A stretch of 23,780 bases of DNA. Origin: a virus. The translations under genes were made by a program, and so were the position numbers. The stretch is taken from positions 1 through 23,780 of the IMG/VR virus record IMGVR_UViG_3300018067_000028. One strand, given 5' to 3'. Below the pieces are notes generated by a model, which saw only the letters and a program-made list of their open reading frames with translations, was not told where the DNA came from and did not search any database. Of the stretch, positions 2,914 through 23,780 are shown piece by piece (position 1 is the first letter of the stretch; each line of letters begins with the position of its first letter).

Positions 2914-3407
2914 TGCATCCCGCCGCGTATCGCTTTGTCGCGTCGATCGTCAGCGCCGGACAGGTGCCGCCTGGGCCGGTCGTCGAACTCGGCGGCCGCG
3001 ACGTCAACGGCTCGATCCGGTCGCTGTTCTGGTCGCCCTATGTCAGCGTCGACGTCGAGCCGGGACCGGGCGTCGATGTCGTCGCCGATGCCGCCGAGTA
3101 TCAACCGCCGGTCGCGCCCGCGTGCGTCGTCTGCTGCGAAGTGCTGGAGCACGCCGTGACGGCGCCCGTCATCGTCTCGAATGCGGGCGCGATGCTCCAG
3201 CCGGGCGGCCTGCTGATCGTCACCGCGGCGGGCGCGGGCCGGGCGCCACACTCCGCCGTCGATGGCGGCCCGCTGCGGCCCGGCGAGTACTACCGCAACG
3301 TCGAGGCGAACGATCTGCTCTGTTGGCTGGCCGGATTCGATCAGGTGCGGGTCACGACGAACCCGTCGGCAGGCGATATCTACGCGACCGCGAGGAAGCC
3401 GCGGTGA
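2913..3407 (+). CDS. Class I SAM-dependent methyltransferase
   Basis: A 164-aa compact Rossmann methyltransferase. Motif I is VVELGGRDVNGS (residues 23-34), the acidic end of strand 2 is SVDVEPG (45-51), a VVADAAEY segment (57-63) marks motif III, then CCEVLEHA (74-81) and LQPGGLLIVTAAG (95-107). This layout is common in UbiE-type methyltransferases, with EVLEH at the usual motif IV position. The substrate cannot be told; neither a nucleic-acid nor a protein target domain is visible. It overlaps the gene before by one base and the glycosyltransferase after by GTGA, so the two enzymes are probably co-translated. It lies inside the tail operon, where it is not required for virion assembly. Confidence 0.85.
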   Translation: MHPAAYRFVASIVSAGQVPPGPVVELGGRDVNGSIRSLFWSPYVSVDVEPGPGVDVVADAAEYQPPVAPACVVCCEVLEHAVTAPVIVSNAGAMLQPGGLLIVTAAGAGRAPHSAVDGGPLRPGEYYRNVEANDLLCWLAGFDQVRVTTNPSAGDIYATARKPR

Positions 3408-11261: not shown

Positions 11262-11902
11262 CGAACTACAGCCAGGTGTTCGCCGACACGCTCGCGCTGT
11301 ATGAGTCCAACTACGTGCCCGGGGATCAAGGCGACGCGGGCAAGGGGCAAGTGTGCGTGCGTGCCGGTTATACCATCCACACGACGCTGGATGCGTCGGT
11401 CGGCTACATCGCGAAGAACCCCGGGCAGACGCAATTCTACGGCGTCGCCGTCGATGCGCTGCAAGACAAGTCCGATGGGTTCGGCGCGGACTACTTGACC
11501 GACGAGCTCCAGCCGGACGGCCGCCGCCTGATCAAGCTGGCGTATACGCCGTACCCGACGCCCGCGGTACCGCCGACGACCGGCTGGGTCGCGCCGACCG
11601 CGGCGATGCTCGAGCATCCCGGCCCGCTGAAGCTGAAGGCCACGACGCCGCCGCCCGAACCCACGCCGCCCGCGCCCAGCAAGGACGACGAGATCCTCTC
11701 GCGGCTCGATGACATCCAGGCGCAGCAGGCGGCCGACACGACGACCATCCTCCAGCGCGGCGACGCGAATACGGCGACCATCCGCGCAGAAGTGGCGGGT
11801 GTGCTCGACTACATCAAGCACCTGGAACACAGCCTAGAAGAGTCGGCGAAGAAGGCGGCGCTGCTGAAAGTAGCGAAGCGGAGAGGCGACGAAACCCCAT
11901 GA
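11258..11902 (+). CDS. Virion-associated protein of unknown function with proline hinge and coiled coil
   Basis: A 214-aa protein with three visible parts: a globular N-terminal domain (about residues 1-105, with CVRAGYTIHTTLDASVGYIA and FYGVAVDALQDKSDGFGADY), a Pro-rich hinge (TPPPEPTPPAPSKDD, about 131-145), and a helical, coiled-coil-like end (DEILSRLDDIQAQQAADTT onward) with a Lys-rich tail. No catalytic motif for an endolysin was found. The hinge-plus-coil design and the place before the tailspike suggest a fibre adaptor or accessory protein. Confidence 0.68.
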   Translation: MTNYSQVFADTLALYESNYVPGDQGDAGKGQVCVRAGYTIHTTLDASVGYIAKNPGQTQFYGVAVDALQDKSDGFGADYLTDELQPDGRRLIKLAYTPYPTPAVPPTTGWVAPTAAMLEHPGPLKLKATTPPPEPTPPAPSKDDEILSRLDDIQAQQAADTTTILQRGDANTATIRAEVAGVLDYIKHLEHSLEESAKKAALLKVAKRRGDETP

Positions 11903-13203
11903 GCCAGGAACAGCTTGACCTTGTCGCGCAGATGGAAGCGCAGCTCGCCGCCGTCGACGAGACACTCGCCGCGCTGAAGGAGACGCTGACCGACACCGAA
12001 CCAGAACCGCCCGACCCGCCGGGGATGATCTTCATCGACAGCGAAGCCGACCTCGACGCCGCCATCGCCGAGGCGTTGCCGGGCGATAACCTCGTGCTGG
12101 CGAATGAGCTGGTCTACTCGAAAGCCCTGACGATCAGCAAGCCGCTCACGCTGACGGCCGAGACGGTCCCGGACGGCCGGATGACGCGCGAGCCCACGCT
12201 ACCGCTGTTCACGGGCGGCCTCAAGGTTACGGCCAACGACGTCACGCTGATCGGCCTCGAGGTCAGCCACACGAACCATACGACCGACATCGTCATCGTC
12301 AGCGGCGCCAACGTGGTTCTCGACCGGTGCCGCATCCTCGGCGACCCCAGCGAAGGCGCGAAGCGCGGCGTCGGCGCCAATGCCGCCAACCTCACGATCC
12401 GGCAGTGCTATATCGCCGATTGTTTCGGCCCGTACCCGGGGAACGACACGCAAGCCGTGTGCGCGTGGGATACGCCCGGCCCGCTGATGATCGAGGATAA
12501 CTATCTGGAGGCCGGGAGCGAGACGATCATGCTCGGCGGCAGCGACCCATCAAGCGAGGCGAACGTCCCGGCCGACGTCACCATCCGCGGCAACACGATC
12601 ACCGCGAACCCGGCATGGCAGCAGCAAGCCGTGAACGTGAAAAGCCGGTTGGAGCTGAAAAACGCCAAGCACGTCCTCATCGAAGACAACGAAATTAGCT
12701 ATTGCTGGGGCGGGCACGGGCAGGACGGCTACTTACTGACGTTGACCGTGCGCAATCAGGAAGGCGATGCGCCGTACAGCACCATCGAGAACGTGATCAT
12801 CCGGCGCAACCACTTTGCGCACGGCGCGGCCGCGATCAACATCCTGGCCGAGGACAACAACCACCCGAGCGGGCGGCTGACGAACGTCGAGATCGTGGAC
12901 AACCTGTTCGAGGACGTGAACCATACGACCTACACGGGCAGTCCGAAGCTGATGCTGATCGGGCGCGGGCCAAAGACGATGACCATCGGCGGGAACACGT
13001 TCAGCGGCGGGGCCCATACCTCGACGATTTACTTTCACGGCCCCGAGCCCAAGTGCGAAGACTTCAACGTCGTCGACAACACCTGGCCGGAATCGAAGTA
13101 CGGGATCTTCGGCGACGGCACGCCGGGCGGCATGACGGCGTGGGACTACTACGTCGCGTCGGGGAGCTGTGAGGGCAACGTCACCGTGCCTAAAGAGGAC
13201 TAG
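11899..13203 (+). CDS. Tailspike / receptor-binding protein with right-handed beta-helix
   Basis: A 434-aa protein. Residues 1-35 form an acidic helical, probably trimerising segment, followed by a TEPEPPDPPG hinge. The rest repeats the parallel beta-helix pattern of pectate-lyase-like folds: KPLTLTAETV, GLKVTANDVTLIGLEVSHTN, GANVVLDRCRILG, NLTIRQCYIADC, MIEDNYLEAGSETIML, VTIRGNTITANP, VLIEDNEISYCWGG, VIIRRNHFAHG, VEIVDNLFEDVNH and MTIGGNTFSGG. Asn ladders (NxF/NxI) are clear. Such proteins bind or cleave host surface polysaccharide; no catalytic residues can be named from sequence alone. It is the last gene of the rightward late operon. Confidence 0.86.
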   Translation: MSQEQLDLVAQMEAQLAAVDETLAALKETLTDTEPEPPDPPGMIFIDSEADLDAAIAEALPGDNLVLANELVYSKALTISKPLTLTAETVPDGRMTREPTLPLFTGGLKVTANDVTLIGLEVSHTNHTTDIVIVSGANVVLDRCRILGDPSEGAKRGVGANAANLTIRQCYIADCFGPYPGNDTQAVCAWDTPGPLMIEDNYLEAGSETIMLGGSDPSSEANVPADVTIRGNTITANPAWQQQAVNVKSRLELKNAKHVLIEDNEISYCWGGHGQDGYLLTLTVRNQEGDAPYSTIENVIIRRNHFAHGAAAINILAEDNNHPSGRLTNVEIVDNLFEDVNHTTYTGSPKLMLIGRGPKTMTIGGNTFSGGAHTSTIYFHGPEPKCEDFNVVDNTWPESKYGIFGDGTPGGMTAWDYYVASGSCEGNVTVPKED

Positions 13204-21661: not shown

Positions 21662-21835
21662 ATGGAGACTCCGAAGCGTCGCGTCGGCCGCCCGTACGTC
21701 GACGGCGAAGAACCGGCCGTGCAAGTCCAGTTATCGCTCTCGGCGAAACGGCTGGAGGAGCTGCGCATTGAGGCGCAGACGCAGCGCGTCACGCTCTCGG
21801 ACTGGCTGCGCCGGTTGCTCGCCCGGCGCGACTGA
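21662..21835 (+). CDS. Small ribbon-helix-helix-like protein
   Basis: A 57-aa basic protein. An N-terminal TPKRRVGRPYVDGEEPAV arm is followed by a strand (VQVQLSLSAK) and two helices (RLEELRIEAQTQRVTL, SDWLRRLLAR), the pattern of Arc/CopG-type DNA-binding proteins. ATG 21662 is set by AGGAGG (21650-21655); the frame upstream is open to 21617 but contains the dyad. It could autoregulate the capsid operon, or be a divergent small terminase partner, though it is much shorter than known small terminases. Confidence 0.72.
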   Translation: METPKRRVGRPYVDGEEPAVQVQLSLSAKRLEELRIEAQTQRVTLSDWLRRLLARRD

Positions 21836-21895
21836 CCCGAATATTTAATTAAAAAATCGACATCTCGGCCATTCCCCCGTACGGTTAACGGCCAC
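21836..21895 (+). promoter_or_regulatory. AT-rich leader before the capsid operon
   Basis: The first half of this 60-bp gap is strikingly AT-rich (TATTTAATTAAAAAAT at about 21842-21857) in a GC-rich genome, followed by CGTACGGTTAACGG directly before ATG 21896. No good Shine-Dalgarno element precedes that ATG. A promoter or UP-type element for the structural genes is possible; I could not assign -35 and -10 boxes. Confidence 0.4.
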
Positions 21896-23770
21896 ATGGC
21901 CGACGTCCTGCACGCGACCGCGACCCTCGACATCAAGGCGGATGCGACGTGCCGCACGTTGAGCGGCATCGCGGCGACGCCCACCCTCGACCGGCAAAAC
22001 AGCATCTACGACGTCGACGGCGCCGTGTTCACCAACCCGGTGCCGCTGCTGTTGCATCACGACCAGGAGCGGCCGATTGGCTCGGCCATCCTCACCAAGG
22101 TCGGCAACGCGATCCACTTCGAGGCGACACTCGCCGATGTCGACGAGCCGTACCTCACCAAAGCGAAGCAGCACATTCGCAGCGGCCTGCTGAAAGCCGT
22201 GTCGATTGGCTTTCATCCGCTCGCCGACGGCCTGGAATACCTCAAGGGCGGCATCCTCAAAATCGTCAAAAGCGAAATCTGCGAACTGTCCTTGGTGACG
22301 GTTCCCGCGAATCGCGACGCGACCATTCTGCGCATCAAGTCGGCCGACGTCGTCGGCCATTCAGGAGCAAAGCCGATGAAACCGACGACTGCCGAACACA
22401 TTCAGAATCTCGAGAACAAGCGCGCCGCCCTCGCCGCCCGGATGACCGGCATCATGGAAGCCGCCGCCGGTGAGGGGCAGACCCTCGAAACGGAGCAGGC
22501 GACGGAACACGACGGCCTGACCGTGCAGGTCAAGAGCATCGACGCCGACCTCCAACGCTGGCGCGATCACGAGAAGCTGCAAATCTCGACGGCGACGCCG
22601 GTACCGACCGTCGTGACGCCGACCACGACATCGCCGTACGCGACCGTCTCGGTGCGCGCGAACGTGCCGATCGGGACGCAGTTCGTGCGCGCCGCGTGTG
22701 CGCGCCTGATGGATCGCAGCGGCATGCTGCCGACTGGCGTCAATGCGATCACCTACGCGCAGGATCGGTGGAAGGACACGCCGGAAGTCGCGCTGTATCT
22801 CAAGGCCGCCATCGCACCGGGCACCGTCACCGATGCGACCTGGGCGCAACCGTTGGTGAATCAGAACATCGCGAACGACTTCATCGCCCTGTTGCGGCCC
22901 GCGACCATTCTCGGCAAGGTGCCCGGCCTGCGTGAAGTCCCGTTCAATACCAAAGTTCCGGCGCAGAGTGCGGGCGGGACGTACGGATGGGTGGGGGAGG
23001 CCAAGCCGAAGCCGGTCACCAAGCTGGCATTTACCTCGACCTCGCTCGGCGTCTCGAAAGCCGCGGGCATCATCGTCCTGACGAAGGAACTGATCATGCT
23101 CTCGAATCCCTCAGCCGAGGCGCTCGTCCGCCAGGACATGGTCGCGGGCATTGCGCAGTTCCTCGATGCGCAGTTCATCGATCCCGCCGTCGCCGCCGTG
23201 GCTGGTGTGAACCCGGCGTCGATCACGAACGGGGCGCCGACCGCGGCGGCGACCACCAACCCCATGGCCGACATCATGGGCCTGATCTCCCACTTCGCGA
23301 CGAACAACATCGCGGTCGACGGCGTCACGTTCATCATGTCCGCGGCGAACGCGCTGTCGCTGTCGTTCCGCAGCAATCTCGACGGCTCGCCGCAGTATCC
23401 CGGCGTGACGGTCGCGGGCGGGAACTACAAAGGCTTGACGTTCATCACCAGCCAGGCCGCAGGCGGCAACGTCATCGCGCTCCAGCCGTCGCTAGTGCTC
23501 TACGCGGATGGCGGCATCGAGATCGACGCCTCGCAGGAAGCGTCATTGCAGATGGACAGCGCGCCCGCGTCCCCGGCCGACGCCACGACCGTGTACGTCT
23601 CGCTGTGGCAGACCAACAGCGTCGGCCTGCGCGCGGAACGGTTCGTCAACTGGGCGAAGGCCAACGCGAACGCCGTGAAATATCTCACCGCGACGGCATG
23701 GCCCGCGCCCACGGGCGCGAGCGCGATGGGCGAGGCCGCGGCGCCGCCGCTCCGTAACGGCGGAAAGTAG
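21896..23770 (+). CDS. Prohead protease-major capsid protein fusion
   Basis: A 624-aa ORF with two parts. Residues 1-150 are an HK97-type (U35) prohead protease: LLLHHDQERPIGSA with His55, AVSIGFHP with Ser103, and ICELSLVTVPANRDATI with Glu130, the expected H-S-E set. Residues 161-240 are helical (HIQNLENKRAALAARMTGIM, VKSIDADLQRWRDHEKL), like the scaffolding delta domain. From about 250 an HK97-fold capsid protein follows (GTYGWVGEAKPKPVTKLAFT, GIIVLTKELIMLS, AQFLDAQFIDP). An internal ATG with CAGGAG can also give the capsid precursor alone. ATG 21896 has a weak site, so fusion levels may be low. Confidence 0.93.
   Translation: MADVLHATATLDIKADATCRTLSGIAATPTLDRQNSIYDVDGAVFTNPVPLLLHHDQERPIGSAILTKVGNAIHFEATLADVDEPYLTKAKQHIRSGLLKAVSIGFHPLADGLEYLKGGILKIVKSEICELSLVTVPANRDATILRIKSADVVGHSGAKPMKPTTAEHIQNLENKRAALAARMTGIMEAAAGEGQTLETEQATEHDGLTVQVKSIDADLQRWRDHEKLQISTATPVPTVVTPTTTSPYATVSVRANVPIGTQFVRAACARLMDRSGMLPTGVNAITYAQDRWKDTPEVALYLKAAIAPGTVTDATWAQPLVNQNIANDFIALLRPATILGKVPGLREVPFNTKVPAQSAGGTYGWVGEAKPKPVTKLAFTSTSLGVSKAAGIIVLTKELIMLSNPSAEALVRQDMVAGIAQFLDAQFIDPAVAAVAGVNPASITNGAPTAAATTNPMADIMGLISHFATNNIAVDGVTFIMSAANALSLSFRSNLDGSPQYPGVTVAGGNYKGLTFITSQAAGGNVIALQPSLVLYADGGIEIDASQEASLQMDSAPASPADATTVYVSLWQTNSVGLRAERFVNWAKANANAVKYLTATAWPAPTGASAMGEAAAPPLRNGGK
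22362..22378 (+). promoter_or_regulatory. Internal ribosome binding site and start codon for the capsid precursor
   Basis: CAGGAG (22362-22367) lies 8 bases before an in-frame ATG (22376), at the exact junction between the protease domain and the helical delta-like region. The resulting product (residues 161-624, 464 aa) has the size of an ordinary HK97-type capsid precursor. The same CAGGAG element precedes the tail tube gene. Confidence 0.72.
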
Positions 23771-23780
23771 GGCGCGCCCG
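23658..23780. repeat. Second copy of the 123-bp terminal repeat
   Basis: Identical to bases 1-123; see the first copy. It covers the end of the capsid gene and the first base of the portal gene. Confidence 0.95.

Follow-up and report, generated by a model that had tools for sequence, protein, structure and literature searches.

In the viral DNA analysed here (IMG/VR record IMGVR_UViG_3300018067_000028, positions 1 to 23,780, the whole of this 23,780-nt stretch being called the window), a single open reading frame probably encodes two co-terminal proteins: a protease-scaffold-capsid fusion begun at a weak start codon, 21896, and a free capsid protein begun at an internal ATG, 22376, that is led by a Shine-Dalgarno (SD) element. 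The internal start is the firmest part of this reading; judged by the persistence of its ATG and its SD in relatives, it very probably makes free capsid protein.

Layout of the fusion gene

The ORF at 21896..23770 (+ strand, 624 aa) is a protease-capsid fusion of the PHROG 617 type (E 2.5e-111, residues 15-602), with an S78 protease and an HK97-type capsid protein in a single open frame. By Pfam, Peptidase_S78 covers residues 48-145 and Phage_capsid residues 320-598; by NCBIfam, TIGR01543 covers residues 48-150 and TIGR01554 residues 173-488. Since the protease profile stops at residue 150 and the free-capsid profile begins at 173, ATG 22376, which is residue 161, lies between the two domains. 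With the narrow fusion model NF045541, named “prohead protease/major capsid protein fusion protein” in NCBIfam, the ORF scores 31 bits against a curated cut-off of 525, below membership.

Profiles, alignment and structure prediction place the protease part, with a disordered linker from residue 137, at 21896..22375 (+ strand). Its end holds the SD CAGGAG (22362..22367, + strand), identified from the sequence, the relatives and duplex energy, and an 8-nt spacer (22368-22375). The in-frame ATG (22376..22378, + strand) follows, and from it a free major capsid protein of 464 aa (22376..23770, + strand) is predicted, consisting of scaffold (delta-like) helices and then an HK97-type capsid domain. 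The sequence-only reading of this DNA had placed CAGGAG 8 nt before an in-frame ATG at the domain junction, and both the coordinates and the Pfam and NCBIfam domains agree with it. In the AlphaFold model, usable for protease and scaffold and poor for the capsid domain (mean pLDDT 51), residue 161 ends the disordered linker (137-161) directly before scaffold-like helices, the long ones being predicted at fusion residues 165-192 and 199-231. H55 and S132 of the protease, the putative catalytic residues by analogy with the family, are invariant in an alignment of 13 diverse members. The features of HK97-type head maturation, namely N-terminal scaffold helices before the capsid domain and the protease His and Ser, appear from the model and the alignment to be present.

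Adjoining the fusion gene is a gene for a 57-aa protein (21662..21835, + strand) with an AGGAGG ribosome site, probably, on weak similarity, of the ribbon-helix-helix type; its only match is to CopG_antitoxin, at a weak E of 0.09. In many relatives the fusion gene is immediately preceded by a homologous small ORF (GRPR..D..., ribbon-helix-helix-like), and one of these homologues matches RHH_1 with an E of 5e-4. A ribbon-helix-helix-like protein could regulate the head promoter. Elsewhere in the window, a 434-aa ORF that follows the tail genes (11899-13203) has a repetitive beta-helix look by eye and is perhaps a candidate tail spike or fibre. A 123-bp direct repeat common to the window's ends (1-123 and 23658-23780) would fit a complete genome of ~23.7 kb that is closed into a circle.

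Conservation of the internal start

In the window, the energy of the anti-SD duplex is -6.6 kcal/mol at 22376 versus -2.4 at 21896. From the viewpoint of a single sequence, an SD this strong is not rare, as 7.7% of positions in these genes are at or below the clade's junction median. Eighty viral contigs with the fusion gene were fetched (58-100% identity), and every one has a junction ATG no more than 3 codons away from the aligned site; at the level of loci, 47 of 53 have it in the exact alignment column. The linker before this ATG varies in both sequence and length, the commonest residue averaging 52% of rows. Over 53 loci at <90% identity, the mean junction SD energy is -6.16 kcal/mol, versus -2.34 for in-frame codons generally. 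Synonymous recodings of the junction average -3.19 +/- 0.26 and permuted codons are similar, with 0 of 2000 reaching the observed value in either case, and in a scan over all in-frame offsets only the overlapping neighbouring offset equals the junction score. Moreover, the spelling of the element differs by lineage, CAGGAG being found in S-G-A, CGGAG in T-E, AAGGGGG in K-G and CGAGG in T-R, with R-P also among the encoding amino acids in some lineages. That the SD has been rebuilt from different codons and amino acids means that it is the RNA, not the protein, that is conserved here, and this points to selection acting on the RNA at the junction SD. A conserved internal start codon with a ribosome site of its own, the signature of a nested in-frame pair of the C/Nu3 kind, is thus in place. 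No peak of synonymous-site conservation was found at or just upstream of the junction. A dip in RNA structure at the internal start was also considered and rejected as weak (-6.9 versus a mean of -10.6, sd 2.3, with other positions lower).

The same arrangement extends to cultured phages that carry a fused gene at ~37-39% identity: Rhizobium phage X2_26, PAJU2 (whose record is labelled “prohead protease fused capsid protein”) and E. coli phage JLK-2012, with junction SDs of AAAGGAG, AGGAGG and AAGGA, respectively. Among non-redundant fused loci, the junction ATG is present in 40/40 of the PAJU2 group, 8/8 of the Rhizobium group and 9/9 of the JLK group (57/57 in total), and the junction SD energies average -9.5, -4.4 and -5.7 where background values run from about -2.1 to -2.5, the Rhizobium group being the weakest of these three distant groups. 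The alignment of homologues had been set beforehand as the test that could refute the internal start, and the proposal came through it: the junction ATG was present in all the fused homologues examined, and in most, those of the PAJU2, Rhizobium and JLK groups included, a suitably spaced purine-rich SD precedes it.

There are also relatives in which the two genes are split. A stop codon precedes the capsid start in eight of them, mostly by 1-13 codons, with a TTG start in one; in Moraxella phage Mcat7, also split, protease and capsid overlap by 4 nt. Since split and fused relatives begin the capsid at the same site, the capsid start signal is the same with or without the stop codon. In the PAJU2 and Rhizobium groups, parsimony gives 6 changes between the fused and split forms, and this interchange indicates that fusion is dispensable there; split loci are scattered among fused ones in both groups, and fusion and splitting look easily interchanged. 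In the window clade, the frame is open from protease to capsid in every locus but L031, and at least 11 parsimony changes in linker length, all of them in frame, are counted on the capsid tree (29 scorable loci). Hence, with frame breaks tolerated in the other groups and none seen in this clade, the fusion is apparently kept, and both products appear to be under selection. This bears out the part of the sequence-only reading that assigned the fusion a role of its own as the source of protease, a product apparently wanted, given a fused frame that survives changes in linker length. As for L031, a TGA stands at a conserved Trp inside the protease domain (~3274-3276), and the remaining frame is intact. 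Regardless of whether the stop is genuine or a sequencing error, an internal start is the only possible source of the capsid part as read there.

Codon bias points, independently, to unequal output. When the weights are trained on the distal part of the capsid, leave-one-out, codon adaptation is 0.679 in the protease, 0.757 in the scaffold and 0.736 in the proximal capsid (n = 28, <80% identity; p 7e-7), and a stricter set retains the step (12 loci, <72% identity; p 0.005), both p-values treating related loci as independent; the terminase stands at 0.637. The PAJU2 group shows a larger step (0.560 protease, 0.709 scaffold, 0.689 capsid), and the window alone is uneven and noisy (0.704, 0.769 and 0.666 in the same order). 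A rise at the internal ATG is seen in every group tested, including PAJU2, JLK and the split loci; in the split loci the step must come from separate expression. Such a rise would follow from overproduction of the capsid part, and it supports the earlier suggestion of a little fusion and much internal product.

The fusion start and its promoter-like elements

The fusion start has no SD, as had been noticed from the window's sequence (-2.4 kcal/mol), and the whole clade is alike in this. The mean SD energy at the clade's fusion starts is -1.47, weaker than the shuffled value of -2.33, with 8% at -4 or below; the internal start of the same loci averages -6.12. What stands upstream instead resembles a promoter. 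A position-blind EM motif search of the 60 nt upstream of the fusion start in 52 loci returned AAAAAT[AC]G[AG]C (log-likelihood 134 versus ~31 shuffled), most sites of which begin 40-46 nt before the start codon, a placement that puts a TNGNC hexamer near -37. The best match to this motif anywhere in the window is the element at 21852, where an A-tract and the -35-like TCGACA (21857-21862) are predicted to form the upstream half of a promoter (21852..21862, + strand). The motif was also considered as a reverse-strand terminator (stem plus T-run), a notion that we rejected because the motif keeps almost the same distance from the start codon, as would better suit a promoter. A -10-like TACGGT (21880..21885, + strand) follows TCGACA at 17 nt, with another 10 nt between it and the ATG. 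TANNNT with its first T at -16 to -12 is found in 17 of 52 relatives versus 1.3 expected, and the combined -35/-10 pattern in 15 loci, again versus 1.3 expected; the best register makes transcription begin either on the start codon or ~3 nt earlier. A scan with the standard sigma-70 consensus called no promoter at 21896, so the promoter case for the window rests on the clade.

A fusion start that coincides with the predicted transcription start would give the reason for its missing SD, the message being leaderless or having a leader of a few nt at most. The clade resembles the leaderless genes of bacteria, which have a -10-like signal ~12 bp upstream, no SD and GTG or ATG starts (PMC3160421, PMC3898074). 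TANNNT ~12 bp before the start marks such genes especially in high-GC groups (PMC3160421), and in M. tuberculosis GTG starts are equally frequent in leaderless and other genes (PMC3898074). The absence of an SD at the start codon applies to clade and window alike; a -10 spaced for transcription to begin at the codon is indicated at the clade level and more weakly in the window, where the gap of 10 nt from the -10 to the start exceeds the clade mode. We put the chances of a leaderless fusion mRNA at about even. The same balance of belief and doubt attaches to the compound proposal, in which one mRNA would be read in two modes on one frame, from a leaderless 5' start for the fusion and an SD-led internal start for free capsid. 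In the PAJU2, Rhizobium and JLK groups, the fusion start mostly has an SD, with start choice there automatic and clearly wrong for some loci.

Long dyads, with arms up to 16 bp, lie over the -10 region in seven relatives, and these are possible operators; in the last 40 nt before the fusion start, the enrichment of dyads is modest overall (5.06 versus 4.22 shuffled), though a few are striking. Two scans of genome contigs for a prophage relative that would assign a host found none.

Probably two proteins from one frame

From these elements we infer the following scheme. Transcription from the predicted promoter at 21852-21885 would begin at ATG 21896 or very slightly before it. Initiation there, at low efficiency and without an SD, would yield the smaller amount of the 624-aa protease-scaffold-capsid protein, and strong SD-led initiation at ATG 22376 would account for the bulk of the output, in the form of the 464-aa scaffold-capsid protein. 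Protease dosage would then be set by initiation strength. The fusion would co-assemble through its capsid part, so that the protease is built into the procapsid and the problem of protease packaging is solved; once packaged, the protease would cleave the scaffold and release itself. E. coli ribosomes are known to translate leaderless messages less efficiently (PMC3898074).

The scheme has to be weighed against a single product. All capsid subunits might be made as the 624-aa fusion, with the internal ATG left over from a capsid gene that was separate in an ancestor and the protease later cutting itself near the junction and after the scaffold. An open frame across the clade and a junction inside a predicted disordered linker, cleavable by the protease, would suit this, as would MD8, in which protease, scaffold and capsid are described as one gene (PMC8508860), and a tripartite capsid gene of Gifsy-2, named in a title cited in PMC8538268. 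A relic should decay, however, and here ATG and SD persist in a fast-changing linker, with the SD rebuilt from different codons, and persist again over three further groups; nor would a codon-bias step at the ATG be expected if both halves were made equally. We consider a single product quite improbable. The fusion might also be spurious, a stop codon having been lost through faulty assembly or sequencing, given that the ATGA at 22376-22379 looks like the 4-nt overlap seen in split relatives. The same fusion in independent contigs from many metagenomes, and in cultured phages too, refutes an artefact of assembly and makes error of any kind vanishingly unlikely.

If there are two products, each could be begun differently from our scheme. 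The fusion could arise by re-initiation after the small ribbon-helix-helix-like gene on a longer polycistronic mRNA, since in most loci where that gene is found it ends 9-75 nt before the fusion start, and in the window it has a strong SD itself. The gaps vary, though, and are often long for coupling (60 nt in the window), and the -35/-10-like elements hold a near-fixed distance from the start codon; this route is possible, at a lowish probability. Free capsid could come from a shorter transcript of its own, begun at a promoter within the protease-coding part. There is precedent for nested transcripts with a common 3' end in herpesvirus UL26/UL26.5, with its nested scaffold gene. Against this, the -35/-10 spacing test, which would miss a promoter with a normal leader, gives 0/52 at the internal start, and the codons immediately before the junction show no elevated synonymous conservation; we judge a separate capsid transcript unlikely.

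Both ingredients of the two-start scheme have precedents. Fusion genes are already known (PHROG 617, NF045541, PAJU2, MD8, Gifsy-2), and so are nested starts: in lambda C/Nu3, an in-frame internal start gives an abundant shorter product of the protease gene, although the nested product there is scaffold alone and the lambda capsid protein has a separate gene. Gifsy-2 is said to have a tripartite capsid gene with protease, scaffold and capsid together; both it and MD8 gp5 have a ClpP-like protease, unlike the S78 protease of the window. A close likeness is to PAJU2 gp03 and its relatives (PHROG 617; NF045541), which share the domain order, the junction ATG with an AGGAGG SD and the codon-bias step; PAJU2 gp03 has ~38% identity to the window protein and differs from the window clade in the ordinary SD of its fusion start. 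MD8 gp5 likewise joins protease, scaffold and capsid in one gene, with no internal start discussed in the passages covered (PMC8508860). HK97 and D3 share a maturation protease at low copy and a capsid protein with an N-terminal scaffold (PMC12749128), with protease and capsid as two separate genes. Leaderless genes have been described for bacterial chromosomes; the one proposed here is a head gene of a phage and comes together with an SD-led internal start. In the largely open-access literature covered, we found nothing that describes an internal capsid start within a fused protease-capsid gene and no prior report of a leaderless-like fusion start such as that of the window clade.

Protease-capsid fusion genes are annotated in many phages. 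A protease on every shell subunit would be a sharp departure from HK97 and D3, whose proheads contain ~60 and ~90 copies of the protease, respectively, far fewer than those of the capsid protein (PMC12749128). A conserved internal start would resolve this imbalance, and many “fusion” capsid entries are predicted to encode two proteins; in a soil phage such as this one, the arrangement would explain the balance of little protease and much shell. If the pairing of a leaderless start with an SD-led one is true, it would be a simple way to fix the ratio of two proteins from one frame, and the protease-to-shell ratio would depend on how the host handles leaderless messages and could shift with the growth state of the host.
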